Assembly: GCA_017538365.1 (NCBI GenBank)
Contig: JAFYIZ010000018.1
Coordinates: 1-39,262 of the forward strand
Direction: 5' to 3'
Source of the DNA: a bacterium
GTDB lineage: Bacteria; UBP6; UBA1177
Length of the DNA stretch: 39,262 nucleotides
In this document: in pieces, positions 19,071 through 39,064 of the stretch
How positions within the stretch are numbered: position 1 is the stretch's first letter
Layout: every line of letters starts with the position of its first letter
Translations under genes and position numbers: made by a program
Notes under the pieces: model-generated
Told to the model about the DNA's origin: nothing
Databases searched by the model: none
What the model saw: only the letters and a program-made list of their open reading frames with translations

Positions 19071-19098
19071 TTGCTCAAAAAAAATAGCTGCCTATAAT
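19071..19098 (+). promoter_or_regulatory. promoter of coaE
   Basis: TTGCTC (19071-19076), a 16-bp spacer and TATAAT (19093-19098), followed by GCCGG. Confidence 0.55.
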
Positions 19099-19126
19099 GC
19101 CGGAAGTTTGTTTTTGGGAGACTGCC

Positions 19127-24489: not shown

Positions 24490-24504
24490 AAAATCTCCGA
24501 AAAG

Positions 24505-26091
24505 TTATTTTGTAACGTCGTTTGCGTCAACTATAACAAGACCAGGAGTAGAGAATGTGTTGTCGTAAATACCTTTAACCTTGGAAACGGTGTCTCCCGC
24601 TTTGAGCGAAAGATTGATTTTGAAAGTATTCGGTTTGATTACCAGACCGTTTGTAAAGGTAACATCTTTGTGGTCAGCATCAACAGATTCGACTGTCAGA
24701 TTTGTGTCAGTCAATTCGATGTAGGTGCCTTTATCTTTTTCTGTGAGGTCAGCATAAGCCTTTTTGACGATTGCAGGAACTGTTCCTGTTCCTGTTTTTG
24801 TCATTGTACATGTAACATGATCTTTGCTTCCAATTTCCCACTGGCTGCCGCCATAGAAAAGGACTTTGCCTTCAATTGTAACTTTGTCGCCTTTTGCCGG
24901 AGCAGCTTCGGCAGTTGCCAGATAAATGTAAAGACCGCTGTAGTCGCCGGTATTTCCGTCGGAAACATAGAAAGAATATCCTGTTCCGCCTTCACTGAAA
25001 TTTTTCGAAATAGCAGGGCTGATAACAATTGCGTTTTCAATTTTGACAGCAGTTTCTTTTTCTACTTTGCCGCTCTGGACATCTTTGATTGTAGTGGCTA
25101 CAGTATCACCAGTATCTGGATCAGTATCGGTATCGGTGTCAGTATCAGTATCGGTGTCTCCTGTGTCGCCCTCAACAAAATCATCCTCTGCTCTCGGAGC
25201 AAGTCTGAATGCATCGTAGGAGTAAATCAAAATTCCCTGGATCGATTCGAATTCTCTTCCTTCAGTTCTTTTATTCTTCGGGTAATAGTAGAAAGTTTTG
25301 TCAATTGCGAGATTGCCGGTAACTTCGAATGTTCCGTGGGTATCCAAAGCGGTATTTGTGATTTTGACATTATTTACTTTGACAAGAACACTCTCATAAG
25401 CTTCAGCGTCTGCGCCGTGGTTTGCCGTTGGATTGCCGTCCTCAAAAGGAGTTGCGATTTTTGTCGTGTCTTCGATTTCTGCCGGAGCCGGGACATCTGT
25501 GGTGCCGAGTTTTTTGATTTCTGCCGCTTCGATCTGCGAGCTTTCGTAGTATTCGGTATATTTTCCGCTTACTTCAAGTTTGTCGCCGATTGCATAATCG
25601 TCGAGCGCCGCGGTCTCTTTTATGAAAACATAGATTCCGGAGTAGGGCTGAGCCGTTTTGATGAGTTCCGAAACATAGAGACCTTGAATAGCCGTGTTTT
25701 CGTGGGTGTCTTTGTCCTGCTTGTAGAGAATAGCAGTAACTACACACTCAGGAACCGTAACGTCGGCGTTGAGTGCGACTTCGCCTTTCTGGATCTTCGT
25801 GATTATGCCTTGGGTGTCACAGTCATCGCAGGTGTCGCCAGTGTCAGGCTGGGTGTCACAGTCATCGCAGGTGTCGCCAGTGTCAGGCTGAGTGTCGCCG
25901 GTGTCAGGCTGAGTGTCGCCAGTGTCAGGCTGAGTATCGCCAGTGTCGGGCTGAGTGTCGCCAGTGTCAGGCTCAGTGTCACACTCTTCCTCATCTGGAT
26001 TGCAGGCAATTTCACCTTCACCCGGGTCGTTGCATGCGATCGTGAACAGGCACAAAGCCAAAACGATCAATGAAATCAAGAATTTTTTCAT
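24505..26091 (-). CDS. lipoprotein with Asp-Thr repeat stalk and two OB-fold-like domains
   Basis: The 528-residue product has a lipobox (LCLFTIAC). A stalk of seven-residue QPDTGDT repeats and two CDDCDT elements follows. Next come two similar domains: one with KGEVALNADVTVPECVVTAI, AIGDKLEVSGKYTEYYESSQ and EAAEIKKLG (about 105-200), the second with SGKVEKETAVKIENAIVISP, GDKVTIEGKVLFYGGSQWEI (about 345-450). A Thr-Asp run (about 310-335) separates them. This pattern is that of OB-fold domains found alone or joined to secreted nucleases (YhcR/DUF5689 type); no nuclease domain is visible here. ATG at 26091 follows GGAG; the frame upstream lacks a better site. Likely first gene of the salvage-like unit. 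Confidence 0.7.
   Translation of the reverse strand: MKKFLISLIVLALCLFTIACNDPGEGEIACNPDEEECDTEPDTGDTQPDTGDTQPDTGDTQPDTGDTQPDTGDTCDDCDTQPDTGDTCDDCDTQGIITKIQKGEVALNADVTVPECVVTAILYKQDKDTHENTAIQGLYVSELIKTAQPYSGIYVFIKETAALDDYAIGDKLEVSGKYTEYYESSQIEAAEIKKLGTTDVPAPAEIEDTTKIATPFEDGNPTANHGADAEAYESVLVKVNNVKITNTALDTHGTFEVTGNLAIDKTFYYYPKNKRTEGREFESIQGILIYSYDAFRLAPRAEDDFVEGDTGDTDTDTDTDTDTDPDTGDTVATTIKDVQSGKVEKETAVKIENAIVISPAISKNFSEGGTGYSFYVSDGNTGDYSGLYIYLATAEAAPAKGDKVTIEGKVLFYGGSQWEIGSKDHVTCTMTKTGTGTVPAIVKKAYADLTEKDKGTYIELTDTNLTVESVDADHKDVTFTNGLVIKPNTFKINLSLKAGDTVSKVKGIYDNTFSTPGLVIVDANDVTK
25812..25980. repeat. in-frame tandem repeats in the lipoprotein stalk
   Basis: Two identical 39-bp units (25812-25850 and 25851-25889) are followed by several 21-bp units coding QPDTGDT. 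All unit lengths are multiples of three, so copy-number change would alter stalk length without breaking the frame. Confidence 0.8.
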
Positions 26092-26147
26092 TTTTTTCTC
26101 CATCAAAAATTATTAAGAAGTTTAAAACCTCAAACAGCAAACGCGCG

Positions 26148-26153
26148 ATTATA
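26148..26153 (-). promoter_or_regulatory. -10 box upstream of the OB-fold lipoprotein
   Basis: TATAAT on the minus strand, followed directly by CGCGCG. No convincing -35 is visible; the region is a run of A/T. Confidence 0.5.
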
Positions 26154-26226
26154 CACAAAATCAAAATTTTTAAAAGGAAATTTTATTTGTAGAAACGTGA
26201 ACTGACACGTCTCAGAAAAGAGTGTG

Positions 26227-28503
26227 TTATTTGCAGTCGGTGGAATAAGTTACGCCGGTTGCAGTGCCGTTAAGACCATTGGGAGACGAATCTTCGGCGT
26301 TCCCGTTGAAATCCCAGAAAGCGATAGTGTCATCACCGCCGAGAGAGAGTTTTGCCGGAGTGAAGTCCGCTGTGTATTTTGCGGTATTGGAAATCTTTAT
26401 TGCGTCGATAAGGCCTTTGAAATAAAAATCTCCGCCACTGAAAATGCTTGAGTCATAATAATATCCTATGACAAGTGCCTTGCTGACTGTTATCGGAGTC
26501 CGCTCGCTGCTGTTGGTTTTTTCTCCTGCCAGTTTTCCGTTTATGTAAAGACGAAGATGAGAAGTTCCGTTATCTACATTGTAAGAAAGCGCAATATGGT
26601 TCCAGCCTTCTTCGACGGGTGAAGCAGCATCTGTATTCTGGTATTTGATTTCAGCAGTAAGATCTGCGGAGCCGGTATAATAAAAACCGCCGTACATGTT
26701 GTAATAAGTGTTTGAATCCGCCGTTGTTTTGTAAAAACCGGTCAGAAAATATCCGTCACCTTTTCTTAAAATCGGGGTTTTTTTATAACTTTCTGTCGGA
26801 AGATTGCCCATATCCTGTTTTGTCCAGGCTTCGATCGTCCAGGCCTGTCCGAGATTCAGCAGATCGTTGTTTGCAACTTCTATTTTCGCACTTCCGTTAA
26901 AAACTGCCGAACAAATAAGTTTGCACTCGTTACCTTCCGGGCCGTCAGGACGGGCGTTTGAAGCACATTTATACTGGCAAGGCTCAGGAACTCCCTCTCC
27001 GTAGTGTGTTGTATATGCAGGTCCAGGCATCCATGCTCCTGCTTCAACATCGTAATATACGTCGTAGCTCGAATCACCGTTCCATTCGGAATTCGCAGGT
27101 TTGGCATCACATTTCTTTGTTTTATAGCAGTTTTGTGCTGAAGAATCCCAAGTTCCGCCTGCTTCGACACATTTTTCCTCGTCAGAAAGAGGTGTCTGAT
27201 CATCGTCATTCACCGGGTTTTCAGAATCTAAATCGTCGTCAATATCGGTATCTGTTGTATCTTCATCGGGAATCGTGGTCGGCTCTGTCGGTTCTGTAGG
27301 CTCGGTAGGTTCCGTCGGATCTGTTTGGTTCGTCGAACCGTTGACAAGCGTCGTTACGAAATCCTTACCTGCCTGCTGCATCCTTGGGAAATCGTCACCT
27401 AAAGATGTCGTGCAGTCAAGAACGAGCATTATAAGCGCGCTGTTCTTATCCTCCGTGATAGTGCTTGAACTTGCCGGGTTGAACTCTGACTCTTTGTCCC
27501 AGCCGCCTGTGCTGGTCTCTTTCCATAGCATTATTCTGCTGATATCGGCATCCGATATCGGGGTGTTGCCGTCGTCGTATTTAAGGTCTTCAAACACGAA
27601 ATGGTAGTATGCACCGTCAGGAGAACCGGTCGATACTGTAGTCTGGCTGGTTAAACCGTGGTATGCGATTTCCTCAAGAGTTCTTCCCTCGGAGCGGCGG
27701 AAGGTGGCTTCAATGTAGAGGTTGGAATCCGTAGCCGTTTCTGAATTGTCGAATGTGAAGCGCAGATGCTGACCGTCGTCGTATCCGCCGGGCACTTTGA
27801 TATCAAGGTTTACCGTTTTGGAGACTGAATAGAGGGCTTCGGCGATAGCCTTGAAATGCTCCATAGCTTCATCCATGTCGGAAACCTGAAAAACATTTTC
27901 GTCGCTGCTTGCCAGCTTTTTCAGTGTTTCTTCAAATGCTGTTTCGTCGGTGACATCTTTGCCTTTAAGGCCGATCGTGTAGGCCGCCGTGTGTAGTCCG
28001 TGGATTTTATCTTTGGCAATCATGTCGTGAAGTGCGTCTCTGTATGCGGCAGTGCTGTTGTAGTTTCCGGGATTATAGTCGTCGTTTGCAAGCGATATGT
28101 TGTCGAGTCCGTCGGTAAATGTTACCAGAGCCACATTTTTCAGCTTTTCGGGAGCAGGATAGCTGCGCATCATTTCCAGCGCGGTGTAGTCTGCAAAATA
28201 GAGAGCTGTGCCGTCGCCGGAAGCGAGGTCGTCGATAAAACTTTTGTAATTCTCTTCAGTTGAAGTGTTCAAAAGACCTATTTCCTTGGTGTATTGGGCT
28301 TCGTTGAACCCGATGATACCGAAGTAGACACCTTCGTTTCCCGCAGCCGTATCGCCCGTGTCGGGTGCTTCGGTGTCATCAGCGTCATTATCGGTTGCCG
28401 TGTCGCCGGTGTCGGTGTCATCATCGGTTTTCTTCGAGCCGCCGCACGAAACAACGAAGGTCAGTGCTGCGAAACAGCAAAAAAATACGAAAAATTTTTT
28501 CAT
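26227..28503 (-). CDS. lipoprotein with vWA-like and LamG-like domains
   Basis: The 758-residue product has a lipobox (LTFVVSC, Cys20) and an Asp/Thr stalk. A vWA-like region (about 58-240) with VALVTFTDGLDNISLANDDY comes next, but without the usual DxSxS at its first strand. A beta-sandwich (about 245-370) follows, then ALIMLVLDCTTSLGDDFPRM, which does carry DxTxS. After a Thr-Glu-Pro linker and a Cys-rich module (about 445-550), the C-terminus is a LamG/concanavalin-like domain (AWTIEAWTKQ, GWNHIALSYN, HLRLYINGKLAGEKT, GLIDAIKISNTAKYTADFTP). It is probably a surface adhesin. It starts 2 bp after the hisS stop with its GGGAGA site inside hisS, so it depends on hisS transcription. Confidence 0.8.
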   Translation of the reverse strand: MKKFFVFFCCFAALTFVVSCGGSKKTDDDTDTGDTATDNDADDTEAPDTGDTAAGNEGVYFGIIGFNEAQYTKEIGLLNTSTEENYKSFIDDLASGDGTALYFADYTALEMMRSYPAPEKLKNVALVTFTDGLDNISLANDDYNPGNYNSTAAYRDALHDMIAKDKIHGLHTAAYTIGLKGKDVTDETAFEETLKKLASSDENVFQVSDMDEAMEHFKAIAEALYSVSKTVNLDIKVPGGYDDGQHLRFTFDNSETATDSNLYIEATFRRSEGRTLEEIAYHGLTSQTTVSTGSPDGAYYHFVFEDLKYDDGNTPISDADISRIMLWKETSTGGWDKESEFNPASSSTITEDKNSALIMLVLDCTTSLGDDFPRMQQAGKDFVTTLVNGSTNQTDPTEPTEPTEPTEPTTIPDEDTTDTDIDDDLDSENPVNDDDQTPLSDEEKCVEAGGTWDSSAQNCYKTKKCDAKPANSEWNGDSSYDVYYDVEAGAWMPGPAYTTHYGEGVPEPCQYKCASNARPDGPEGNECKLICSAVFNGSAKIEVANNDLLNLGQAWTIEAWTKQDMGNLPTESYKKTPILRKGDGYFLTGFYKTTADSNTYYNMYGGFYYTGSADLTAEIKYQNTDAASPVEEGWNHIALSYNVDNGTSHLRLYINGKLAGEKTNSSERTPITVSKALVIGYYYDSSIFSGGDFYFKGLIDAIKISNTAKYTADFTPAKLSLGGDDTIAFWDFNGNAEDSSPNGLNGTATGVTYSTDCK

Positions 28504-28505
28504 TT

Positions 28506-29765
28506 TTATCTCCCTTGTGTAGCCGTGATTGCTGAAATTATCCCGGAAATATCGTCTTTATCGAAAAGAGTCTGCTCGCGAGTCGCCATGTTTTTCATGA
28601 GGATTTTGCCGTTCGCCGCTTCGTCTTCGCCGATTACGAAAACGAATGATGCATTGGTTTTTTCGGCTTTCTGAAGGGCTTTTTTGAGTTTTTTGGGTTT
28701 GTAGTCGGCAAGAAATCTGACATTTTCTTTCGACATTTTTCTGGTGAATTCGACAAGCTGCAGAACTGCTTCATCGCAGAGCGCGTATCCGGCGGAAAGA
28801 GGTTCTTCCTTGTAAAAATCTTCGGGAATGAGATCGAAAAGTCTTTCCAGACCCATTGCAAAACCTGTTGCCGGAGTGTCGCTTCCGCCGATATCGCTTA
28901 CCAGGTTGTCGTATCTGCCGCCGCCAGCTACTGCATTCTGCGAGCCGCCTGTTTTTGCGACGATTTCAAACGCGGTTTTGGTGTAGTAGTCAAGTCCGCG
29001 GACGATGAAAGGATCGAGAACAAAAGGCACTCCGAAAGCCTTAAGCGCTTTCTGAAGCTCTTCAAAGTGGTTTTTGCAGTCTTCGCAGAGATAGTCGGTC
29101 ATTTTAGGAACATCGGCGCAGTTTGCCTTCGGGTCGCACGCCTTGCAGTCAAGAAGGCGCAGCGGGTTCGCTTCAAGTCTTGTTCTGCAGTCTTCGCAGA
29201 GATGTTCCTTTTTTGCCGAGAAGTATTCGATCAGTTTTTCGCGGTAAGCGGCGCGGCACTCTTTGCAGCCGATAGAATTGAGGTGGATTTCGTAATCAAT
29301 TCCGAAGTGTTCGAGCACTCTTGAAGCTGTGAAAATCATTTCGGCATCCATTTGCGGAGTTTCGTCACCGAAAATCTCGACTCCGAACTGGTGGAACTGG
29401 CGGAAACGCCCTTTCTGCGGACGCTCGTATCTGAAAAACGGCGCAATGTAGAACGCTTTGAAAGGGGAGGGATAGTTGATTCCGATTCCGTGCTCGACAA
29501 AAGCCCTTACGACGCTTGCCGTTCCTTCCGGCCTCATCGCAACATGTCTTCCTTTTTTGTCGAGGAAGTCGTACATTTCCTTTTTAACGACATCGGTGGT
29601 CTCGCCGACACCGCGCTTGAAAAGGGCGATTTCTTCCAGGATCGGAGTTCTGAATTCGCCGAAATCAGCAGCCGCCATCATCTTTTTTATATCTTCTTCC
29701 ATCTTTCCCCAGCGGAAAGCCTTTTCGCCGAAGAGATCGTTCATACCTTTGATTGCTGAAATCAT
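28506..29765 (-). CDS. hisS: histidyl-tRNA synthetase
   Basis: HisRS charges tRNA-His with histidine using ATP. The 419-residue protein is normal length and shows the class II motifs: motif 2 FRYERPQKGRFRQFHQFGVE, the HisRS-specific RPEGTASVVRAFVEHG, GLDYYTKTAFEI with the catalytic Arg region before it, GGGRYDNLVSDIGG, and motif 3 ATGFAMGLERLFDL. A Cys-rich insertion (CKECRAAYREKL, CEDCRTRLEANP and CEDCKNHF) is of the kind present in many bacterial HisRS. I chose the ATG at 29765, which has GGAGAAA 4 bases upstream; the longer open frame to 29810 has no ribosome site. Confidence 0.96.
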   Translation of the reverse strand: MISAIKGMNDLFGEKAFRWGKMEEDIKKMMAAADFGEFRTPILEEIALFKRGVGETTDVVKKEMYDFLDKKGRHVAMRPEGTASVVRAFVEHGIGINYPSPFKAFYIAPFFRYERPQKGRFRQFHQFGVEIFGDETPQMDAEMIFTASRVLEHFGIDYEIHLNSIGCKECRAAYREKLIEYFSAKKEHLCEDCRTRLEANPLRLLDCKACDPKANCADVPKMTDYLCEDCKNHFEELQKALKAFGVPFVLDPFIVRGLDYYTKTAFEIVAKTGGSQNAVAGGGRYDNLVSDIGGSDTPATGFAMGLERLFDLIPEDFYKEEPLSAGYALCDEAVLQLVEFTRKMSKENVRFLADYKPKKLKKALQKAEKTNASFVFVIGEDEAANGKILMKNMATREQTLFDKDDISGIISAITATQGR

Positions 29766-29798
29766 TGTGTTTCTCCAATTAAACAACAAAAACGGGCG

Positions 29799-29826
29799 AT
29801 GGTAGCACAAAAACCTAAATTTTCAA
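29799..29826 (-). promoter_or_regulatory. promoter of hisS
   Basis: On the minus strand TTGAAA (29826-29821), a 16-bp spacer and TACCAT (29804-29799), followed by CGCCCG. It ends at the border of the AAGGACT repeats. Confidence 0.6.
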
Positions 29827-29828
29827 TG

Positions 29829-29906
29829 TTAAGGATTAAGGATTAAGGTCTAAAGTCCCTAATGTCCTTAAAGTCCTTAAGGACCCTAAGGACTCTAAGG
29901 ACTCTA
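29829..29906. repeat. AAGGAT/AAGGACT palindromic repeat cluster
   Basis: Direct and inverted copies of a 7-8-base word fill the gap between hisS and the next gene: AAGGATTAAGGATTAAGG, then GTCCTTAAGGAC (29873-29884, perfect palindrome) and CTAAGGACT repeats. AGTCCTTA pairs with TAAGGACT across a 7-base loop. It reaches the stop codon (TAG, 29906-29904) of the nucleotidase-like gene, and the hisS promoter abuts its other edge. Probably a mobile or slippage-derived intergenic repeat; it could also act as a terminator. Confidence 0.65.
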
Positions 29907-31322
29907 CTCCCTAACAAGTTTTTCGCAGGCTTTTTCCAGATTCCACCCTTTTTTCGATGATTCGATGAGATAATTTTCAAGCGGAGTCCGCCAGCTGACG
30001 CTTGTCGTTATGCCCTGCGAATCTGTGAATCTGTAGCCGTCACCGCCCTGATAGACGAAATCGGTCGTGACGATTTTATAGGTTTTAGATTTGTCGATCT
30101 CTTCGTTTCCGACAAACCACTTTTTATTCTTTTTTGTTACGCCGCAGTAGGCGTTTTCCGATTTTTCGATGTCGAAAATGAGGTCTTCGCCCTGAACTGT
30201 CGCGGTAACGATGAAGTTGTCGAACGGAAAGATCGAAAGAATGTCGCTTTTTTTAACGTCTCCCGCTTTTATCGAGTCCCGGAATCCTCCGGGGTTGCTG
30301 AACGCAGCGTCGTATTCAGGGAAAGATCTCAGCATAGAGCATGCGAAAAGCTTCTGCAAAGCTGGCGTTTTAAGCGGTTTTCCGGCCGAAATGAGCGTTT
30401 GCCCCGTCTCTTTTTCAAGAAGAGCCAGATATTTGTCGATAGTTTTCTTCATTTCGAGTGAGCCTGTTGATTTCAGTTCGATTTCCCTTTTCAAAGGAAC
30501 GATCTCCGCATGCATGACTTTTGAATTTTTCCCCTTTTTTTCGATCAGAACTTTTGCGTAACTCGGCAGGTATCCTGCATTCTGGATGAAAAGTACGCCG
30601 TTTTCCTCTGAATGCGCCTCTTTATGGTCGTGAGCTGTGAAAACTATGAGAGGCTTTTGAGGAAGCGACGACACCCATGTTTTCGCCTCTTTATGCGATT
30701 CGTGAGCAACTATGATATTGAGATCGGCATTTTCTTTGGCAATAGCGTTCGGAACAGTGTTTTCCGGTTTTGCGATCGTTGATTCGACGAAAGGTTGCGC
30801 CATGCTTATTCTTTTCACTTCTTCGGTTATTGCCGAAACAAAAAGGATTTTTTCGTTTCCGGCGTAGATAACCGTGCTGGGATCAAAAAGATTTTTCATC
30901 TCCTTCGATACGACATTCGAGCTGATGTACTGCATGTTTGCGGTTTTGGCGTTGTTTTTGAGTTCTCTCTCTCCGAAATCGAATTCATGGTTTCCGAGTG
31001 CCGAGACTCTGTAGCCCAGAAGCCCCATGACTTCAGCCGTTGAAACTCCTTTGAAAAAGGTCGAAACGGCGGTTCCCGTGTAGTTGTCGCCGCCCGAAAG
31101 TTTGACGACAGCGCAGTTTTTGCAGTTTTTTTCCTCATCTTCCCACATTTCGTAAAGTGCGACCGCTTTGTACCAGCCGTCGTTTTCGTAGATGTGACCG
31201 TGCTCGTCGTTTGTGTAGAGAAGAAGGATCGTCGAAGTCTCTTCTTCATGAAAGAATCCTTCGATCTGCGCGCATCCTGCAAAAATGAAAACCAAAAATA
31301 AAAACCAGTATTTTTTAACCAT
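29904..31322 (-). CDS. second 5'-nucleotidase-like lipoprotein
   Basis: The 472-residue product has a lipobox (FLVFIFAGC). The calcineurin-like phosphatase motifs are LLYTNDEHGHIYEN (DxH), KLSGGDNYTG, SALGNHEFDFGER, IVAHESHKE and VFTAHDHKEAHS. The C-terminal 5'-nucleotidase domain reads SNPGGFRDSIKAGDVKKSDI, LSIFPFDNFIVTATVQGEDL and TTDFVYQGGDGYRF. It is therefore an independent relative of the 22162-24489 protein, but shorter and without the Ca-loop insertion. It should hydrolyse extracellular nucleotides or similar phosphoesters. ATG at 31322 follows AAGGAG; the longer frame upstream to 31346 lacks one. It appears to be a single-gene unit, reading away from the tandem barrel array. Confidence 0.9.
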   Translation of the reverse strand: MVKKYWFLFLVFIFAGCAQIEGFFHEEETSTILLLYTNDEHGHIYENDGWYKAVALYEMWEDEEKNCKNCAVVKLSGGDNYTGTAVSTFFKGVSTAEVMGLLGYRVSALGNHEFDFGERELKNNAKTANMQYISSNVVSKEMKNLFDPSTVIYAGNEKILFVSAITEEVKRISMAQPFVESTIAKPENTVPNAIAKENADLNIIVAHESHKEAKTWVSSLPQKPLIVFTAHDHKEAHSEENGVLFIQNAGYLPSYAKVLIEKKGKNSKVMHAEIVPLKREIELKSTGSLEMKKTIDKYLALLEKETGQTLISAGKPLKTPALQKLFACSMLRSFPEYDAAFSNPGGFRDSIKAGDVKKSDILSIFPFDNFIVTATVQGEDLIFDIEKSENAYCGVTKKNKKWFVGNEEIDKSKTYKIVTTDFVYQGGDGYRFTDSQGITTSVSWRTPLENYLIESSKKGWNLEKACEKLVRE

Positions 31323-31391
31323 CGGAAACTCCTTATAAAAACTCAAAACAGGAGATCATACCCGAAATCGGCGATATGTAAAATCATCAAC

Positions 31392-31419
31392 TTGAATTTT
31401 CATGCGATTCGTGTATAAA
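31392..31419 (+). promoter_or_regulatory. promoter of the tandem outer-membrane array
   Basis: TTGAAT (31392-31397), a 16-bp spacer and TATAAA (31414-31419). Its wording (TTGAATTTT, CATG, GATT, TGTATAAAAA) recurs at 37673-37699 before the second gene group. Confidence 0.6.
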
Positions 31420-31467
31420 AACTATGCCGTTTAGATTGTTGGATAAAGAGAAATTTTGGAGGTTACT

Positions 31468-32298
31468 ATGAAAAAATTCTTTCTGTTTTTTGTAATTTTT
31501 ATGCTGTTCGGCGTTCTTTCGGCGCAGGAAGCTCAGAGCTCGGAACAGAACGAACCTGCAGCTGCTGCCGAAGAAGTCAAAGAAAACGGCGAAGCTGCTC
31601 CGGTAGAAGTTCCGGCTGCGGAAAATCAGGAAAGTGAAGCGCAGAACACTCCGCAGGAAGAGGAAAAAACGCCCGAAACAGCGGAAAAACCAGAGGCACC
31701 GGAGCCTGAAGAGACAAAAAAGGAAGCTCCTGCTCCTGCGGAAACAGTGAAGGAAGAACCTGCCCGGCCTGAAACGGCGCCGCAACCGGCATCCGAACCT
31801 GTTGTTAAAGAGGAAAAACCTTCAAAAATGTTCTATAATCCTTCTGCCGGTCTCGGAATAGGCGCTTCAATATTCAGCTTCAGAATCAACAACGATTTCG
31901 ATTTTCTTCTGAAACATACGCAAAGCGGCACCGATGTCTACCTCGGGCTTGAGATCGATTTCAGATACAGTCCTTATATCGACGATCATTCCATTTACGA
32001 GATTCCTCTCCAGCTGAATTTTCTTTTCGATTTTCCGCTGAACAACAAGAACGTCAAACGCCTTGCTCTGTGGTTCTCGGGCGGTATCGACCTCGCTATC
32101 GGTTATCTTTCCTACTATGATTACGATGACGACTATGATGATGAAGGCAAAGACCGAGACTCGCGCTTCAAGATCATGGCGGCATGGGGCATGGGTGTCA
32201 GTATGCTCTTTCATAACGATGTCACTCTGAAACTCGGTTTCGACAGTTTCTACGGCAAATATCCCGATCTGGTCTGTGCTGCAGGTTACAGATTCTAA
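31468..32298 (+). CDS. array gene 1: small outer-membrane barrel with long Glu/Pro/Ala linker
   Basis: First and longest member (276 residues) of the eleven-gene tandem family. After a Sec signal (MKKFFLFFVIFMLFGVLSA) comes a ~95-residue linker of Glu, Ala, Pro and Lys, then a ~160-residue barrel domain: MFYNPSAGLGIGASIFSFRI, YLGLEIDFRYSPYID, EIPLQLNFLFDF, WFSGGIDLAIGY, a very acidic loop (YDYDDDYDDEG) likely facing outside, AWGMGVSMLFHNDVTLKLGF and the terminal AAGYRF. Eight strands and an aromatic end fit an OmpW/OmpX-sized porin-like fold. It lacks the EVQVGEY cassette. ATG at 31468 follows TTGGAGG. No family name is recognisable; function unknown. Confidence 0.75.
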   Translation: MKKFFLFFVIFMLFGVLSAQEAQSSEQNEPAAAAEEVKENGEAAPVEVPAAENQESEAQNTPQEEEKTPETAEKPEAPEPEETKKEAPAPAETVKEEPARPETAPQPASEPVVKEEKPSKMFYNPSAGLGIGASIFSFRINNDFDFLLKHTQSGTDVYLGLEIDFRYSPYIDDHSIYEIPLQLNFLFDFPLNNKNVKRLALWFSGGIDLAIGYLSYYDYDDDYDDEGKDRDSRFKIMAAWGMGVSMLFHNDVTLKLGFDSFYGKYPDLVCAAGYRF

Positions 32299-32307
32299 AG
32301 GGTCTTT

Positions 32308-32991
32308 ATGAAAAAGCCGCTTCTCTTTTTCGCAGTTTTTCTCTTTTTTTCTTTTTTGACTGCTGAAGAAGTGCAGGTCGGCGAATACACCATTGAAGAT
32401 GTCACGATAACTCTGTTTGAAGAAAGGGAAATGGAGCCTGAACCCGAGCCCGAACCGGAAGTCGGAAAACAGCCTGAACCTGAACTGAACACGGAAGGAA
32501 TGGTTTGCTGCTGCGATGTTTTCAACTATGGCAACATTGATCCGAAAAAATTTTATGTCCAGCCTGCTCTCGGTGTAGGCACGGGGTTTTCCCTGTATCG
32601 TGTCAATTTCTCTTTAGATGCCGATGTTCTCGTTGCCAGAACGAAAAAAGTCAATTATTACATCGGCTTGGATATCGATGCAAGGACCTCGGCACTTTGG
32701 GGTCTTGAACCGAGAGAGCTAGCTCTTCAGTTAAACGGTGTCTTTGATTTTATACAGGAAGGTGTGCCGGAACTGATTTTGGCCAGCTTATGGATTTCTG
32801 CCGGAATAGACCTGTTTTTGATCAGAGGCACGATGGACGGAGATCTGACGGAACATCATTTCGAGTACAGTCAGGCATGGGGCTTCGGAGTTGATCTGGT
32901 TTTTAAAAACTATGTGATTTTGAGATTAGGGCTTGAAGGGATCACAGGAATATGGCCCGATCTGACGATAGCACTGGGCTACAGGTTTTGA
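32308..32991 (+). CDS. array gene 2: cassette-type outer-membrane barrel
   Basis: 227 residues. It opens with the shared 5' cassette: signal peptide (residues 1-19) and mature EVQVGEYTIEDVTITLFEE, then a Glu-Pro repeat (EPEPEPEPE) and a CCC triplet (MVCCCDVFNYG) just before the barrel. The barrel starts KFYVQPALGVGTGFSLYRVN and runs to IWPDLTIALGYRF. The three adjacent Cys are unusual in the family and could form disulfides or bind metal. Nine bases separate it from gene 1, so it is co-transcribed. Function unknown. Confidence 0.75.
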   Translation: MKKPLLFFAVFLFFSFLTAEEVQVGEYTIEDVTITLFEEREMEPEPEPEPEVGKQPEPELNTEGMVCCCDVFNYGNIDPKKFYVQPALGVGTGFSLYRVNFSLDADVLVARTKKVNYYIGLDIDARTSALWGLEPRELALQLNGVFDFIQEGVPELILASLWISAGIDLFLIRGTMDGDLTEHHFEYSQAWGFGVDLVFKNYVILRLGLEGITGIWPDLTIALGYRF

Positions 32992-33008
32992 TAATGCGTG
33001 AAGTTGTA

Positions 33009-33629
33009 ATGAAAAAAATACTTCTTTTTTTCGCGGTATTTTTTATTTTTTCCGCACTTTCGGCTGAAGAAATACCGTCTGAAAACAAAGAAAACTCCGA
33101 AATTTCCGAAAACACGGCTTCATGTGCATGTAACGAATATAAAAAAGACAATGAAATCAAAAAGATATATTACTCGTTATATTGGGTGTTCGAACCTCCA
33201 TGGACAACACACATCGGTCTTGATGTCGATTTCCTTTTGACGCATACAAAGAGGGAAAACAATATTTACATGGGGTTGACTTTCAATCCGGGATATTCGT
33301 TCGGGCAGTATAGTCTTTATAATGTTTTTCAACTCCCGTTCCAGCTGAATATGGCTTTTGATTTCAAGCAGCAGAACTGTGTTGTCGACTATATTTCCCT
33401 GCGGCTTTCAGGCGGAGTAAATCTGCTTTTCGGACGGCCTGAAAGCAGTGGTTACCATGACACGACTTATAACGGGCTGAGCAAAGTTGTTGCAGCGGCC
33501 GAGATAAGTTTTGATCTTATATTCGTCAACAATATGGTTTTCCGCTTAGGCATGAATATGGTAAATCACGGATTGCTGCTTGAAAGTTATCTGCCGCTCC
33601 CGATTGTCGGACTGGGTTACCGGTTTTAG
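33009..33629 (+). CDS. array gene 3: non-cassette barrel with CxC motif
   Basis: 206 residues: signal (MKKILLFFAVFFIFSALSA), a short Glu/Asn/Ser linker ending in SCACNEYKKDN, then the barrel (HTKRENNIYMGLTFNPGYSF, LPFQLNMAFDFK, LRLSGGVNLLFG, DLIFVNNMVFRLGMN and VGLGYRF). The first strand is less like the family pattern (YYSLYWVFEPPW). The CxC next to a KK/DN-rich patch is shared with gene 11. The ATG at 33009 is preferred because the signal peptide begins there; an in-frame ATG at 32994 would add MREVV and overlaps the region right after the preceding stop. The ribosome site is weak (GTGAAG). Confidence 0.7.
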   Translation: MKKILLFFAVFFIFSALSAEEIPSENKENSEISENTASCACNEYKKDNEIKKIYYSLYWVFEPPWTTHIGLDVDFLLTHTKRENNIYMGLTFNPGYSFGQYSLYNVFQLPFQLNMAFDFKQQNCVVDYISLRLSGGVNLLFGRPESSGYHDTTYNGLSKVVAAAEISFDLIFVNNMVFRLGMNMVNHGLLLESYLPLPIVGLGYRF

Positions 33630-33636
33630 GTGAACT

Positions 33637-34344
33637 ATGAAAAAACTGCTTCTCTTTCTCACAGTTTTTTTCTTTTTCGGTTTTGTGATTGCGGAAGAAG
33701 TGCAGGTCGGCGAATACACCATTGAAGATGTTACGATAACATTGTTTGAAGAAAGGGAACCGGAACCGAAGCCGGAGCCTGAACCTGAAAAAGAGCAGAG
33801 GAAAGAAGCTGCTGAAAAAACTGAAAAAGGAGATCCCGCTCATGATATTTCGGGTGAACCTGACAAAGAACCGGAGAAATTCTTTTTTCAGGCGGCTGCA
33901 GGGGTGCTGACCGGCATCAATTTCAATCTGGCTGCCAATTTTGATTTCGGTTTTCTCGTTTTTCACTCTCCGGCGGGACACAATCTCTATCTCGGGTTTG
34001 AGACCGATTTCAGATATGCTATGAAAAACTGGATGGTTGACAGTTACGATGACTACGATATTTGCGAAATTCCTTTCCAGGCGCATCTGACAGTCGATTT
34101 TAAAAACAAAAATCCGTTTGTTCCATACCTTTCGATGTGGTTTTCGATAGGTGCGGAAGTTTTGCTGGAAAACGAAGCGGATAGTCCGTACGACACAAAG
34201 AAGTTCAAGGGGGCGAGAGCGGCGGCGGCATGGGGAACAGGACTCAACCTTGTGCTTAAAAACAGCATTGTTTTCAAAACCGGAATAGAAGGATATCAAG
34301 GAAAGTATCCGGTCCTGCTTTTTGCTTTGGGTTACAGATTTTAG
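33637..34344 (+). CDS. array gene 4: cassette-type outer-membrane barrel
   Basis: 235 residues, the longest cassette member. The signal peptide and EVQVGEYTIEDVTITLFEE match the other cassettes, the linker (EPEPKPEPEPEKEQ then Lys/Glu/Ala) is longer, and the barrel begins EKFFFQAAAGVLTGINFNLA. Strands include LYLGFETDFRYAM, CEIPFQAHLTVDFKNKN, WFSIGAEVLLENEA and AWGTGLNLVLKNSIVFKTGI, ending in ALGYRF. The start (ATG 33637) lies 7 bases after the previous stop and the joint is TTTTAGGTGAACTATG, a sequence repeated at other cassette genes. Confidence 0.75.
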   Translation: MKKLLLFLTVFFFFGFVIAEEVQVGEYTIEDVTITLFEEREPEPKPEPEPEKEQRKEAAEKTEKGDPAHDISGEPDKEPEKFFFQAAAGVLTGINFNLAANFDFGFLVFHSPAGHNLYLGFETDFRYAMKNWMVDSYDDYDICEIPFQAHLTVDFKNKNPFVPYLSMWFSIGAEVLLENEADSPYDTKKFKGARAAAAWGTGLNLVLKNSIVFKTGIEGYQGKYPVLLFALGYRF

Positions 34345-34360
34345 AGGTTTCGGAGTTTTT

Positions 34361-34933
34361 ATGAGAAAAGTTCTCGTTTTTGCAGCCATATTTTTTGTTT
34401 TCGGCACGTTTTTCGCGGAAACCGGAACAAATGAGAGCAAAACAACAGAACCTGATCAGTTCTATATCCAGCCTGTTTTGGCGGCCGGCGTGATATTCGG
34501 CGGCGAGCGTTATGTTTCAGGCTCATTCAATGCCTCGCTCAAGACGGAATTCCTCGTTTCAAAGCCCGGCAGGATAACTTCTATCTATGTGGGAGCCGAT
34601 ATCGGATTCAAGTACAACAACTCACTTTATCAGACTTGGGATGTGCCTGTACTTTTCAATGTCGTATTTGACTTCATGACCGATTCCAAAGACGGAATTC
34701 CCGAGCATGTCGGCTTCTGGATAGCACTCGGGATGGCGTGCGGAAAATATGATGAGGATTCGGTTTTTGATTATGATCCCGGCGATCCGGATGATCCTTA
34801 TGTTCAGTTCGACTTCGCATGGGCGTTCGGTCTGGAGGCGAAATTCAGGAACCGCATCGTTGTTCAGCTTTCGGCGAGGAGTTTTGCCGCGGGCAAAGTT
34901 GCTCCTATGATCGGTATGGGTTACAGGTTTTAG
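34361..34933 (+). CDS. array gene 5: short non-cassette outer-membrane barrel
   Basis: 190 residues. A signal peptide (VLVFAAIFFVFGTFFAE) is followed by hardly any linker (TGTNESKTTEPDQ) before the first strand FYIQPVLAAGVIFGGERYVS. The barrel shows SIYVGADIGFKYN, WDVPVLFNVVFDFMTDSKDG, FWIALGMACGKYDED, a loop of Asp/Pro residues (YDPGDPDDPYVQF), AWAFGLEAKFRNRIVVQLSA and IGMGYRF. Its body resembles gene 7 most closely (both have FDF followed by a DG-loop and FW-LALG), although gene 7 has the cassette. ATG at 34361 follows GGAG. Confidence 0.7.
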   Translation: MRKVLVFAAIFFVFGTFFAETGTNESKTTEPDQFYIQPVLAAGVIFGGERYVSGSFNASLKTEFLVSKPGRITSIYVGADIGFKYNNSLYQTWDVPVLFNVVFDFMTDSKDGIPEHVGFWIALGMACGKYDEDSVFDYDPGDPDDPYVQFDFAWAFGLEAKFRNRIVVQLSARSFAAGKVAPMIGMGYRF

Positions 34934-34945
34934 GCGGAGAGTTTT

Positions 34946-35518
34946 ATGAAAAAACTGCAACTCTTTTTTGCTATGATATTTTTCACAGTTGCTCTGAGCG
35001 CTGCCGATGACAAACCTGTTACGGCGGTCATCGCGGAAAAACCTGTGAATCCGGTCTATTTTCAGGGAACTCTCGGTTTTGCGACAGGCTCTTCGTTATT
35101 TTCTTTGAGCACAGATTTCAACCTCGGTTTTCTTGTGGCGCACACCAAGAGAGAAAACAACATCTACATCGGGATAGACGCCGACTTCAGATACAATCCC
35201 TACAAGGAGCACGAACATTCGATAGAAGTGCCGCTGCAGCTCAATTTTGCGGTCGATTTCAAGATGAAAAATGTCGGACTTAGATATTCGGGATTCTGGA
35301 TCTCAGGCGGAGTCGATCTCACTTACGGGGTTGATTGCGCTACCGACAGCCATTACCGCACGGTTTCGCCTTCGTGGCAGAAAGAATTCAGGCTTAAACC
35401 GGCATGGGCTGCCGGCGGAAACTTTGTTTTCAAGTACAATATAGTTTTGAGAACAGCGGTTTACGGATTTTACGGGAAATATCCGAATGTTCTTGTGTCC
35501 GCAGGCTACCGCTTTTAG
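34946..35518 (+). CDS. array gene 6: short non-cassette outer-membrane barrel
   Basis: 190 residues with signal MKKLQLFFAMIFFTVALSA and a short linker (ADDKPVTAVIAEKPVN). The barrel reads YFQGTLGFATGSSLFSLSTD, VAHTKRENNIYIGIDADFRY, EVPLQLNFAVDFKM, FWISGGVDLTYGVD and NFVFKYNIVLRTAVYGF, ending SAGYRF. The HTKRENNIY element is identical to that in gene 3, suggesting a recent common ancestor or conversion. ATG 34946 follows GGCGGAG. Confidence 0.7.
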   Translation: MKKLQLFFAMIFFTVALSAADDKPVTAVIAEKPVNPVYFQGTLGFATGSSLFSLSTDFNLGFLVAHTKRENNIYIGIDADFRYNPYKEHEHSIEVPLQLNFAVDFKMKNVGLRYSGFWISGGVDLTYGVDCATDSHYRTVSPSWQKEFRLKPAWAAGGNFVFKYNIVLRTAVYGFYGKYPNVLVSAGYRF

Positions 35519-35525
35519 GTGATTT

Positions 35526-36206
35526 ATGAAAAAGCCGCTTCTCTTTCTCACAGTTTTTTTCTTTTTTTCTTTTGTGACTGCGGAAGAAGTGCAGGTCGGC
35601 GAATACACCATTGAAGATGTCACGATAACCTTGTTTGAAGAACGGGATCCTGAGCCGGAACCTGAACCGGAACCAGAGCCTGAACCTGAGCCGGAAAGTC
35701 CGCTTGAAAATAAAGCGAAAGGGCCGAAACCGTTTTATATCCAGCCTATGGGTGTTTTCGGGATTTCTTGCGGAGGATATTACGCGATTGTCTATGCAGT
35801 TATTGACACAAATGTCGATTTTGCTTTGCATCTCGCAGAGACAAGTCGGGGAGACAACATCTATCTCGGATTTAATTTGGGTGTAAAATACTCAACATTT
35901 TACCATACTGTCGAAATACCGGTTCAGTCCAAACTTGCTTTTGATTTCAAGACGAATTCGCCTGACGGAACTCCTGAATATGCAAGTTTTTGGCTTGCTC
36001 TGGGTGGCGGCGCAGGACTTTATGATTCATCCTATGTTTTTCTGTTTTATCCAAGTGAAGATTTGAGGCTGAATTGGGAGATGATCTTTTCGTGGGGAAT
36101 AGGGACCGATCTCACTTTTGCGAACGGGGTCGTTTTGCAGGTCGCTATAAAAAGTTTTGTTAATTTTTACCCGGTTCCGTCTTTTGGTTTGGGCTACAGG
36201 TTTTAG
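35526..36206 (+). CDS. array gene 7: cassette-type barrel with the longest Glu-Pro repeat
   Basis: 226 residues. The cassette begins after the TTTTAGGTGATTTATG joint. The linker is a pure run of Glu-Pro (EPEPEPEPEPEPEPE), coded by six-base units that vary between CCGGAA, CCTGAA, CCAGAG and CCTGAG. The barrel starts KPFYIQPMGVFGISCGGYYA and includes NIYLGFNLGVKYST, VEIPVQSKLAFDFKTNSPDG, WLALGGGAGLYDS, WGIGTDLTFANGVVLQVAIK and FGLGYRF. Its body is similar to gene 5 while its N-terminus matches the other cassette members, a mosaic. Confidence 0.75.
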   Translation: MKKPLLFLTVFFFFSFVTAEEVQVGEYTIEDVTITLFEERDPEPEPEPEPEPEPEPESPLENKAKGPKPFYIQPMGVFGISCGGYYAIVYAVIDTNVDFALHLAETSRGDNIYLGFNLGVKYSTFYHTVEIPVQSKLAFDFKTNSPDGTPEYASFWLALGGGAGLYDSSYVFLFYPSEDLRLNWEMIFSWGIGTDLTFANGVVLQVAIKSFVNFYPVPSFGLGYRF

Positions 36207-36215
36207 GGAAAATTT

Positions 36216-36818
36216 ATGAAAAAAAAGGTCATATTTCTCGCGATAATGCTTGTTTTCGGGCTTTTGGGCGCCGAAGAGATGCAGAAAGAGACCCCTTCTC
36301 CCGATACTGAAACTGCAACCGTGGAAAAAAACGGTGAAAAACCGAAATTTTTCTATATCCAGCCTGCTTTGGGTCTCTCTTCCGGATTCATGGAATTTTC
36401 CGTCATGGCAGATATAGATGCCGGATTCCTTGTCAAACACACCGGAAAAGGAAGCAATATTTATCTTGGTCTTGATCTTGATTTCAGATACAGTCCGATC
36501 CCTGGTGTATTCGAAGAAGAGGAGATTAGAAACATTCTGGAATTCCCGATACAGGCAAATCTTACCATTGATTTTAAAAACAGAAACCGGCTCGCGCCTC
36601 ATATTGCGTTTATATCTGTCTGGGGTTCTCTCGGAATAAATCTTTTCATTGAACAGGATAATTACGATTATGTCTATACCGGAGGACTTAAAGAAGGAGT
36701 GGCCTGGGGCACGGGTTTCAGCATCCTTTTTAAAAGCAATATGGTCTTCAAAACGGGAATATCGGCGTTCCGCGGTCGCTATCCGCAGGTTTTCCTGCTG
36801 ATCGGTTATAGGTTTTAG
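36216..36818 (+). CDS. array gene 8: non-cassette outer-membrane barrel
   Basis: 200 residues with signal peptide KKVIFLAIMLVFGLLGAEE, a short linker (MQKETPSPDTETATVEKN) and a barrel that starts KPKFFYIQPALGLSSGFMEF. Further strands are NIYLGLDLDFRYSPI, LEFPIQANLTIDFKNRN, VWGSLGINLFIEQDN, AWGTGFSILFKSNMVFKTGI and LIGYRF, close to the family average. A charged loop (PGVFEEEEIRN) sits between the third and fourth strands. It follows gene 7 by 9 bases. Confidence 0.7.
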   Translation: MKKKVIFLAIMLVFGLLGAEEMQKETPSPDTETATVEKNGEKPKFFYIQPALGLSSGFMEFSVMADIDAGFLVKHTGKGSNIYLGLDLDFRYSPIPGVFEEEEIRNILEFPIQANLTIDFKNRNRLAPHIAFISVWGSLGINLFIEQDNYDYVYTGGLKEGVAWGTGFSILFKSNMVFKTGISAFRGRYPQVFLLIGYRF

Positions 36819-36825
36819 GTGATCT

Positions 36826-37488
36826 ATGAAAAAAACGCTTCTCTTTCTCACAGTTTTTTTCTTTTTCGGTTTTTTGATCGCGGAAGAAGTGCAGGTCGGC
36901 GAATACACCATTGAAGATGTCACGATAACCTTGTTTGAAGATAGAAAACCCGAGCCGGAGCCTGAGCCGGAAAAGGAGCCTGAAGTCGAAAAACAGAAAG
37001 AAGAAGTTGAACCGGAAACTAAGGAAAAACCTGAATTCTTCTATGTTCAGCCGATTGCTGGAATAGGGGTAATGATGGAGCATTTAAGCTTCACCGTGGC
37101 ATTGGATTCCTATTTCCTGCTGAATCCTCAGGGCAGAAAAATGAATTTTTATTTAGGAACAGAAATCGGGTTCAGATATACTCCGTATATTGATTATAAT
37201 ACCTCATTTATCGAAGGGCGTATTTTTGAAGTTCCGATTCAGGCACTTTTTGTTTTTGATGCACAAATCAATCCTCAATATTCGACCCGTTTAGGCGGTT
37301 GGTTTTCGTTTGGACCGAACTTGATATGGGAAAACAACCTCCAGGAAACAAACACAATGGAATATTATACCTGGTTAGCATGGAGTACAGGTGCAAATAT
37401 CACTATGAACAATGTTGTCATAAGATTCGGAGTAACTGGTTATTATACTTTCTTTGATTTCATTCTTGCCGTCGGTTACCGGTTTTAA
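36826..37488 (+). CDS. array gene 9: cassette-type outer-membrane barrel
   Basis: 220 residues, last of the first transcription group. The cassette (joint TTTTAGGTGATCTATG) is followed by the linker EPEPEPEKEPEVEKQKEEVE and then PETKEKPEFFYVQP, which is shared with gene 10, so these two are probably the youngest pair. The barrel differs in its loops: NFYLGTEIGFRYTPYID, FEVPIQALFVFDAQ, WFSFGPNLIWENN and WSTGANITMNNVVIRFGVTG, ending AVGYRF. After the stop lies the 198-bp repeated spacer. Confidence 0.75.
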   Translation: MKKTLLFLTVFFFFGFLIAEEVQVGEYTIEDVTITLFEDRKPEPEPEPEKEPEVEKQKEEVEPETKEKPEFFYVQPIAGIGVMMEHLSFTVALDSYFLLNPQGRKMNFYLGTEIGFRYTPYIDYNTSFIEGRIFEVPIQALFVFDAQINPQYSTRLGGWFSFGPNLIWENNLQETNTMEYYTWLAWSTGANITMNNVVIRFGVTGYYTFFDFILAVGYRF

Positions 37489-37684
37489 AACTCGCTCATT
37501 TTTTTGTAAATTTTGTAAAAAAGTCACTCGTCTTTTGCTGAATTTTCTTGAAAACTCGCTCATTTTTTTGTAAATTTTGTAAAAAAGCGTAATAAAATCA
37601 ATGTTTTTGAAAAAATGGTGATTTTTTATCGGTTTTTGACTTTGTTTGCGCACTCTTTCAGCCCAAAAATCCTTGAATTTTATC
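37487..37684 (+). repeat. ~200-bp intergenic repeat, copy 1, with promoter
   Basis: This block fills most of the only gap in the array and recurs at 39064-39262; the last ~145 bases are identical except for one T in a run (7 versus 8). Inside it a 37-bp word, AAAACTCGCTCATTTTTTTG onward, occurs twice (37487-37523 and 37551-37587). It spans the end of gene 9 to the -35 of the next promoter; the T-runs could end transcription. Confidence 0.9.
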
Positions 37685-37699
37685 ATGATTATGTATAAA
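37673..37699 (+). promoter_or_regulatory. promoter of the second array group
   Basis: TTGAAT (37673-37678), a 15-bp spacer and TATAAA (37694-37699). The -35 and the first bases after it are part of the repeat; the wording resembles the promoter at 31392-31419. Confidence 0.6.
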
Positions 37700-37731
37700 A
37701 AATCTGTTCAATAGGTAGTTGCAGGTGAACT

Positions 37732-38412
37732 ATGAAAAAACTGCTTCTCTTTCTCTTAGTTTTTTTCTTTTTCGGTTTTCTGATTGCGGAAGAAGTGCAG
37801 GTCGGCGAATACACCATTGAAGATGTCACGATAACACTGTTTGAAGAAAGGGATCCTGAGCCAGAACCTGAAAAAGAACCTGAACCTGAACTGGAAAAAG
37901 AAGCGGAAGTTGAGAAACAGGAAGAGGAAGTTGCGCCGGAAACTAAGGAAAAACCGAAATTCTTCTATGTTCAGCCGACTGTAGGTATGGGAACGGGGAT
38001 ATCATTCTATCGTTTTACTGTTGCTTTGGATGCCGATTTTCTGATTGGTCACACTCCGTCGGTCAATTTTTATGTCGGACTTGATCTCGATTGCAGAAAA
38101 CCGACATTTGCCTATGAGCTTTTGAATCCGATAGTGGATTTTGCCGTTCAGAGTAACGGGGTCGTTGACATTGTGATAGGTGGATCGGAACTAAAATCAT
38201 TCGGTATATGGACATCGCTCGGTTTGAATATAACTTACGGTCAGAGATGCCACAAGGATGAGGGATGTGAACCGACTGCTTTCACATATATGCCGGGCTG
38301 GGGAACGGGGTTTGATTTTGTGTTCGACAACAATATCGTTCTTAAAATCGGAATAGACGGATTCCTGGGTATTTACCCTGACATTACGCTTCTTGTCGGT
38401 TACAGGTTTTAA
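37732..38412 (+). CDS. array gene 10: cassette-type outer-membrane barrel
   Basis: 226 residues. It has its own promoter and the full cassette (joint TTGCAGGTGAACTATG, here without a preceding stop codon). The linker alternates Glu-Pro and Glu/Lys/Val and ends PETKEKPKFFYVQP, as in gene 9. The barrel reads PTVGMGTGISFYRFTVALDA, NFYVGLDLDCRKPTFAYEL, VDFAVQSNGVVDIV, IWTSLGLNITYGQ, a short loop with two Cys (RCHKDEGCEP), WGTGFDFVFDNNIVLKIGID and LVGYRF. Its body is closest to gene 2 (VNFYVGLDLDxR, NGVxD). Confidence 0.75.
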   Translation: MKKLLLFLLVFFFFGFLIAEEVQVGEYTIEDVTITLFEERDPEPEPEKEPEPELEKEAEVEKQEEEVAPETKEKPKFFYVQPTVGMGTGISFYRFTVALDADFLIGHTPSVNFYVGLDLDCRKPTFAYELLNPIVDFAVQSNGVVDIVIGGSELKSFGIWTSLGLNITYGQRCHKDEGCEPTAFTYMPGWGTGFDFVFDNNIVLKIGIDGFLGIYPDITLLVGYRF

Positions 38413-38428
38413 TGTGCGGGGATTGATG

Positions 38429-39064
38429 ATGAAAAAAACTTTTATCTTTTCTGCTCTGTTTTTTTTAATTTTCTCCCTGGCAGCTGAAGAGGCTCCCGAA
38501 ACAGCAGAAGAAAATCATGAAAATCAGACGAAAAGTTGCAGCTGCAGCAAAGAAAAGAATGATAAAAAGCCTGATTTTTTCTATTTTGAACCTTCCATAG
38601 GAATAAAAACCGGACTTCCGATATTGTTAAGCGCAGTTCTCGATATGAGTTTCAATTTTCTCGTTTACAGCAGAGAGCAGACGCCAAATATTTATCTTGG
38701 ACTGAATTTAGGTTTAAGGTATTCTCCCTTTGGAGAGGAACTTAATGATACTGAAGATAAGAATAGATTGGATTTTCCTTTTCAGGCAAAGATTTCTTTT
38801 GATTTCAAACGTAACAGACGCCATGTCGATTATGTGTCATTCTGGCTTTCCGGGGGAGCTAATCTGATGTGGTGGCAGGGAACACACTGGATTCGGGAAA
38901 GCAATGATTACGTAAAAATAACGGAATCTTCATGGAAATTTACGGCTGCCTATGGATTCGGACTCGATCTGCTGTTTAAAAACAATGTCGTTCTGAAATT
39001 CGGATTTGATTCAGTCAGAGGGATCTGGCCTGAGCCGGTTGTCGCCGTCGGTTACCGCTTCTAA
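38429..39064 (+). CDS. array gene 11: non-cassette barrel with CxC motif
   Basis: 211 residues: signal (KKTFIFSALFFLIFSLAAEE), a short linker ending in SCSCSKEKNDKKPDFFYFEP, then the barrel (IYLGLNLGLRYSPFG, LDFPFQAKISFDFKRN, FWLSGGANLMWWQ, AYGFGLDLLFKNNVVLKFGF and AVGYRF). The CxC plus Lys/Asp patch parallels gene 3. The ATG at 38429 gives GGGG a 7-base spacing; the ATG at 38426 three bases earlier is equally possible. It follows gene 10 by 16 bases and is followed directly by the second copy of the repeated spacer. Confidence 0.72.
   Translation: MKKTFIFSALFFLIFSLAAEEAPETAEENHENQTKSCSCSKEKNDKKPDFFYFEPSIGIKTGLPILLSAVLDMSFNFLVYSREQTPNIYLGLNLGLRYSPFGEELNDTEDKNRLDFPFQAKISFDFKRNRRHVDYVSFWLSGGANLMWWQGTHWIRESNDYVKITESSWKFTAAYGFGLDLLFKNNVVLKFGFDSVRGIWPEPVVAVGYRF

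Follow-up and report, generated by a model that had tools for sequence, protein, structure and literature searches.

A modular repertoire of small predicted outer-membrane barrels, probably exchanged between species, in rumen bacteria of candidate phylum UBP6

The stretch of DNA analysed here, hereafter the window, is 39,262 nucleotides long and starts at base 1 of contig C17 in the 2.32 Mb, 49-contig genome assembly of a rumen bacterium belonging to candidate phylum UBP6 and the genus of UBA1177. Its positions 31468-39064 hold eleven intact open reading frames, all on the plus strand and separated by 7-17 bp except for one gap of 243 bp, and all eleven proteins start with an M(K/R)K signal peptide and end with GYRF. 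An earlier sequence-only reading of the window had described the genes, their strand, their ends and their spacing in the same way, and the measured positions agree with it. The array is probably a modular repertoire of small eight-strand outer-membrane barrels that is exchanged between species of rumen UBP6 bacteria and would provide every species with a surface-protein set of its own. A module is made up of a head gene carrying a conserved 5' cassette and one or two partners with private 5' ends, and homologous recombination between cassettes, either in the same genome or with DNA from a related species, would insert, delete, reorder and swap such modules. The same recombination would homogenise the cassettes of one genome without erasing the differences between its barrels. 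All genomes compared are metagenome assemblies (MAGs); those related contigs that carry names belong to MAGs of rumen or gut origin, among them bacterium UBP6_UBA1177 and assemblies from goat, yak, reindeer and red deer, and the rumen is the reported source of UBP6 MAGs of genus UBA1177 (PMC7820578).

The array runs past 39064: the 243-bp spacer that fills the wide gap recurs right after gene 11, where the end of the window and of contig C17 cuts it off, and contig C20 opens in the same spacer repeat with an exact overlap of 24 bp with the end of C17. A profile built from the eleven window proteins detects nine more tandem barrel genes in the same orientation at the end of C20, as well as solo relatives on C40, C37 and, weakly, C45. 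Since the two contig ends share the spacer repeat with its 24-bp overlap, the eleven and the nine genes probably form one array of 20 genes; the join through the repeat is likely, not proven. The joined array is flanked by a gene for a 5'-nucleotidase-type lipoprotein on the left, and by a methylpurine-DNA glycosylase gene (mpg) followed by an adenylate kinase gene (adk) on the right.

When the barrels are sorted into orthogroups, here given as letters with a digit for the cassette type and no digit where there is no full cassette, fixed modules of two or three genes appear: E-I, J-K-L, M-N, C-D, F-G, O-P, and B-R. The genome of the window reads A / E1 I / J1 K L / M1 N / W1 / spacer B1 R / spacer B1 O P / S3 Q / F G / C1 D, genome G014 reads e f A / C1 D / C2 D / E2 I / J2 K L / M2 N / B2 psi / F G / C2 D / Q2, and G012 reads A / T1 d / C1 D / B2 V / B1 O P / spacer F G / E2 I / M2 N / S2 Q. 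Smaller arrays are found in G004 (A C D J K L) and G008 (A C1 D). At this syntenic locus the modules thus stay intact across species while their order and presence vary. The place where order changes was examined by classing the 5' ends of the genes by the similarity of their first 111 bp to paralogs in the same genome. Genes with private 5' ends kept their upstream neighbour in 66/75 comparisons, while those with cassette-headed or homogenised 5' ends did so in only 3/57, and it is because of this contrast that sequence comparison places the breakpoints at the cassettes heading the modules.

The cassette is about 120 bp long and comprises the ribosome-binding site, the signal peptide and, last, the motif GEYxxxDVTVTLFEE. 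Seven genes with otherwise only distantly related barrels share it at about 90-94% identity (the mean barrel identity within one genome is about 34% for cassette genes, which is far above chance). The sequence-only reading had noted alternating N-terminal types, which reflect this piece of 5' DNA. Cassette similarity tracks the genome and not the barrel type, the identity being 86.3% for different barrels of the same genome and 79.7% for the same barrel in another genome. Between species the barrels of head genes are 0.96-0.998 identical, while their 5' ends are often only 0.70-0.90 identical, and within their own genome the cassettes match at 0.92-0.99; the contrast between head genes and genes with private 5' ends has a p of 0.001. 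The switch point is displayed directly by M of G012 and G014 (barrel 0.998, 5' end 0.901) and by C of G000 and G014 (barrel 0.967, 5' end 0.757). The cassette is also a protein feature, since the mature peptide it encodes is under purifying selection with a nonsynonymous-to-synonymous ratio (pN/pS) of 0.29, and a genome search did not find the tail motif in the host genome outside the array. It is at the same time an optional add-on, because the G004 orthologs of C and J lack it. The motif EDVTITLF was considered as a TonB box and this was set aside, as the motif is confined to the array and an eight-strand barrel cannot house a plug; the host genome does encode TonB-like proteins and one plug-domain receptor.

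Transfer between species is indicated by the silent sites. Between G012 and G014 the identity at four-fold silent sites is 0.60 for hisS, 0.58 for the 5'-nucleotidase-like gene at 22162-24489 and 0.56 for gene A of the array, while it is 0.82-1.00 for C, D, E, F, G, I, M, and N. Overall, hisS and the 5'-nucleotidase gene show 0.50-0.68, and similarly high values as those of the modules are found for several orthogroups in the pairs G012-G001, G014-G001, and G014-G008. Barrel orthologs in other species are up to 100% identical, and the best match lies in another species and not in the same genome for 19/20 barrels of the window genome and for 18/18 barrels of G012. G014 has three copies of C and three of D, and approximately unbiased (AU) tests reject that the copies of either group form a single clade (p 7e-30 for C and 9e-5 for D); they fall in different clades shared with other species. 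The tree of the 5'-nucleotidase gene, on the other hand, rejects grouping G014 with G012, G008 or G001. As a part of the favoured reading it is probable that modules cross species, since their silent-site identity lies far above that of hisS and the 5'-nucleotidase gene. Given the silent identity, the rejected C and D clades and the 5'-nucleotidase tree, the content of the array seems to be mostly acquired and exchanged. The barrels are old lineages with about 35% identity inside one genome, and growth would come mostly from acquisition and reshuffling of pre-diverged modules and not from duplication in place. The earlier proposal of a family expanded by duplication therefore stands for the growth in number and fails for local duplication.

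Plain local expansion, meaning tandem duplication within each lineage followed by divergence and by gene conversion of the 5' end, would account for the same-strand tandem layout and for D copies inside G014 that are 93.96% identical. Broken barrel copies in G001 and G014 (L059 5310-5855, reverse strand in locus coordinates; L062 15093-15670) likewise indicate birth and death inside the arrays. Such an expansion is nevertheless unlikely, as the nearest relatives of nearly all window-genome barrels are in other species, the AU tests reject in-genome duplication of C and D, and the silent-site identity of the modules is above that of the core genes tested. An ancient array passed on in the genus by vertical descent alone, where lineages lost and rearranged genes differently but no transfer between species took place, fits with some 20 old shared orthogroups at a syntenic locus and with the block E-I-J-K-L-M-N, which has one order in G000 and G014. 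We find it very unlikely, since it leaves unexplained a silent identity of 0.9-1.0 where hisS and the 5'-nucleotidase gene show 0.5-0.65. Codon constraint is an improbable cause of the high values, because these orthogroups can be highly divergent in another pair of genomes: for G000 and G014 the silent identity of E is 0.33 and that of I is 0.43. The reordering could also in part be an assembly artefact, with contigs built from short reads switching strains at the repeated cassettes; the data are MAGs throughout, the window itself breaks at a repeat, and the cassettes are 90-94% identical. This is distinctly unlikely when independent studies, on several animals (goat, yak, reindeer, red deer, UBA), yielded contigs with intact copies of the same modules, and when both flanks of the array are found on one contig in G014, G012, and G004.

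A division of labour, where each barrel has its own ligand and exchange moves niche functions and not disguise, is compatible with the exchange mechanism and is possible, if rather doubtful. Eight-strand barrels of known structure (OmpA/OmpX) have no open pore, which speaks against it, and no conserved polar set is evident beyond structural glycine and aromatic residues, as would be expected of an enzyme or a shared binding site. Purifying selection on each barrel (pN/pS 0.17) speaks for it, as does the inheritance of modules as fixed sets, which suggests cooperating partners; in Ehrlichia, furthermore, the tandemly encoded P28 and Omp-1F have porin activity with differing diffusion rates (PMC7789307).

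Several observations weigh against the modular, interspecies exchange that we favour. The neighbour comparisons are not independent of each other, although the contrast they give is nonetheless very large. Small arrays of the G004 type have no cassettes, so modules can be kept and passed on without one. The pN/pS of the barrels shows that each is kept functional, and it gives neither positive selection on point changes nor any direct sign of immune-type pressure. As the data are MAGs only, some of the reordering could be mimicked by chimeric joins where cassettes are repeated, and the join of C17 to C20 is supported by only 24 bp within a repeat. The background for the silent sites is a few core genes only, and mpg and adk beside the array also have raised identity in some pairs; this is expected if transferred tracts reach into the flank, and adk may simply be slow.

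The fold was predicted by AlphaFold2 for two divergent members, gene 10 and gene 5 (Table 1), and in both models eight strands follow a disordered tail, as the barrel proposed earlier would lead one to expect. The predicted local distance difference test score (pLDDT) is 80-98 for most barrel residues in both models, and the barrel of gene 10 spans residues 78-224. The nearest solved folds found by Foldseek are Ail, NspA, OmpA, OprF, OmpX, and PagL, and the structure matches to OmpX/Ail, NspA, OmpA, and PagL have E ~1e-4 to 1e-5 and 9-18% sequence identity. The models, together with the signal peptide and the aromatic residue at the C-terminus, place the proteins in the fold class of eight-strand outer-membrane β-barrels, which would put them in the outer membrane. 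As both ends of such a barrel face the periplasm by the usual topology, the tail and the cassette peptide should be periplasmic. Loops L2 and L3, which by the same topology are on the outside, are the most variable parts of the barrel in both sequence and length.

The only invariant columns in the barrel alignment are Y, G, R, and F, and the near-invariant ones are mostly structural; the columns contain no conserved His or Ser pair of the PagL/PagP type and no evident catalytic set. No family in Pfam or PHROGs fits any of the eleven genes, and the NCBIfam hits are all weak. Among 61 members PF13505 (OMP_b-brl) stays below the cut-off (5/61, best E 0.0053), and so does PF13568 (OMP_b-brl_2), with 1/61 at 0.03 and nothing in the genome. 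The TP0733 spirochaete barrels (NF047328, NCBIfam) match 12/61 members weakly, with a best E of 6e-6. Matches to Trypan_PARP, EF0750_LPXTG, and Presenilin were discarded, since they stem from the Pro/Glu-rich tail or the signal peptide. A phage origin as a Lom-type barrel was also rejected: the gene 10 barrel has no match in viral contigs or phage records, and there is no PHROGs match. The family is unnamed, with no Pfam or PHROGs entry.

The barrel family is present in 15/15 genomes of the genus with 5-29 profile matches per genome, other genera of the taxonomic family have 1-3 distant matches, and a profile search of 42 more distant genomes did not find it, so its earlier description as lineage-specific is upheld. 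Distant barrels in G004, G012, G014, G003, and G007 lie in open frames of ~440-500 amino acids with E ~1e-14 to 1e-20 against the profile, which suggests a larger related family with an extra region. At the syntenic locus the number of copies across the genus ranges from 1 to about 22. Gene A, which has a long tail, is the sole copy on the stretch of the locus examined in G003, G007, and G013, and in most other species it is the first gene of the array or close to it; it is because of this that it is the probable founder.

Long tandem arrays of outer-membrane proteins are known from Ehrlichia (PMC7789307), and the earlier view that such an array could not be assigned was in this respect too strong, although the family is a different one. 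The Ehrlichia Omp-1/P28 locus, where full copies are arranged in tandem (PMC4534519), has 14-23 full-length paralogs with lineage-specific gains and losses (PMC7789307). It is the closest architecture, with more than 10 full-length tandem paralogs at one syntenic locus and a copy number that varies by species. The corresponding family, PF01617 (Surface_Ag_2), has no match in the genome and is absent among the Pfam matches of the 61 members at E <=0.1. The UBP6 array differs in its eight-strand barrels of ~150 amino acids, the fixed modules of two or three genes, the homogenised 5' cassette and the interspecies transfer of modules. Neisseria has about 11 Opa genes in one genome, which are turned on and off by CTCTT repeats in the signal-peptide sequence (PMC4534519). 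Opa proteins resemble the UBP6 family in being small outer-membrane barrels with variable loops, encoded by complete copies and subject to recombination and horizontal transfer (PMC4534519). The UBP6 genes, however, form operon-like arrays, no CTCTT-type repeats were noticed in them, and transfer is seen between species. What sets the array apart from both is that several genes form a fixed module, that breakpoints fall at the cassette and that transfer takes place between species. In Anaplasma Msp2/P44 the variable segments are likewise surrounded by conserved ends that serve as recombination anchors (PMC4534519), while in the UBP6 array no silent copies or single expression site were seen and whole intact genes move as modules. 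The barrels also differ from OmpX/Ail, NspA, OmpA, and PagL by their long Pro/Glu-rich N-terminal tails and by having no sequence family match.

In the favoured mechanism the barrels would be embedded in the outer membrane, the tail that the cassette encodes would be a shared periplasmic handle, and selection would act on the set of exposed loops displayed, through contact with phage, protozoa, the host or a substrate. The locus would then be a swappable surface-display repertoire, or it would supply binding functions that change with the set. Of the outcomes suggested earlier, antigenic diversity and a mixed surface may apply, while nothing in the analysis speaks for a surface layer. A rumen bacterium could in this way remodel its exterior with neither point mutations nor a store of silent copies. 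The unit of evolution would be a fixed multi-gene module passed between species, in a candidate phylum known here from metagenome assemblies, and the link between a leader-peptide cassette and recombination breakpoints is a testable one. A wider proposal, which we put forward only tentatively, is a genus-wide exchange of surface proteins, where the cassette is kept for two roles, as a handle in the protein and as a docking site in the DNA, and where every species of the genus could take up entire modules of two or three genes from a common pool through homologous recombination. This would be similar to integrons swapping cassettes, but without a dedicated recombinase. Describing a family that has no Pfam or PHROGs entry also fills a gap in the annotation of UBP6 genomes.

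Near-identical copies of the spacer are found in the arrays of G012 and G001, and a genome search shows that the spacer is absent from the rest of the host genome. Promoters were called only by comparing the spacers. The promoter-like spacer ends before the B modules, together with the element upstream of A, suggest three transcription units, and because of this many barrels are probably expressed together. A promoter and terminator scan by consensus did no better than shuffled sequences and did not pick up the element upstream of A, and an Rfam scan of the window gave no match. Repeated AAAACTCGCTCATTTTTTTGTAAATTTTGTAAAAAAG-like units occur inside both spacers of the window. The coordinates of all these features are collected in Table 1.

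Table 1. Barrel genes, cassettes, spacers and probable promoter in the window.
Feature	Position	Strand	Remark
Probable array promoter (CTTGAATTTT...GTGTATAAAA)	31387..31427	+	Aligned by eye; layout in common with the promoter-like end of the spacer
Gene 1, orthogroup A, long acidic/Pro-rich tail, no cassette	31468..32298	+	Single copy in one-gene species
Gene 2 cassette (ribosome-binding site, signal peptide, GEYTIEDVTITLFEE)	32299..32424	+	
Gene 2, orthogroup E, cassette type 1, head of module E-I	32308..32991	+	
Gene 3, orthogroup I, private 5' end, module E-I	33009..33629	+	
Gene 4 cassette	33628..33753	+	
Gene 4, orthogroup J, cassette type 1, head of module J-K-L	33637..34344	+	
Gene 5, orthogroup K, module J-K-L	34361..34933	+	AlphaFold2 model: eight-strand barrel
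Gene 6, orthogroup L, module J-K-L	34946..35518	+	
Gene 7 cassette	35517..35642	+	
Gene 7, orthogroup M, cassette type 1, head of module M-N	35526..36206	+	
Gene 8, orthogroup N, module M-N	36216..36818	+	
Gene 9 cassette	36817..36942	+	
Gene 9, orthogroup W, cassette type 1	36826..37488	+	
243-bp spacer: AAAACTCGCTCATTTTTTTGT-type repeats, then promoter-like CTTGAATTTTATCATGATTATGTATAAAA	37489..37731	+	
Gene 10 cassette	37723..37848	+	
Gene 10, orthogroup B, cassette type 1, head of module B-R	37732..38412	+	AlphaFold2 model
Gene 11, orthogroup R, module B-R	38429..39064	+	
Second copy of the 243-bp spacer, cut by contig end	39065..39262	+	Array resumes on C20

In G014 the spacer before the last gene of the array (contig C37 of that genome, joined loci L062+L063, ~18254-19777) contains a gene for a 450-amino-acid AAA_14/DUF4143 ATPase. 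The gene is an insertion in the array, and the same AAAACTCGCTCATTTTT repeats precede it. To the left of the array, positions 20876-31307 of the window encode two 5'-nucleotidase-type proteins, a nucleoside-recognition (Gate) membrane protein, hisS, and a lectin-like protein with a Laminin_G_3 domain.

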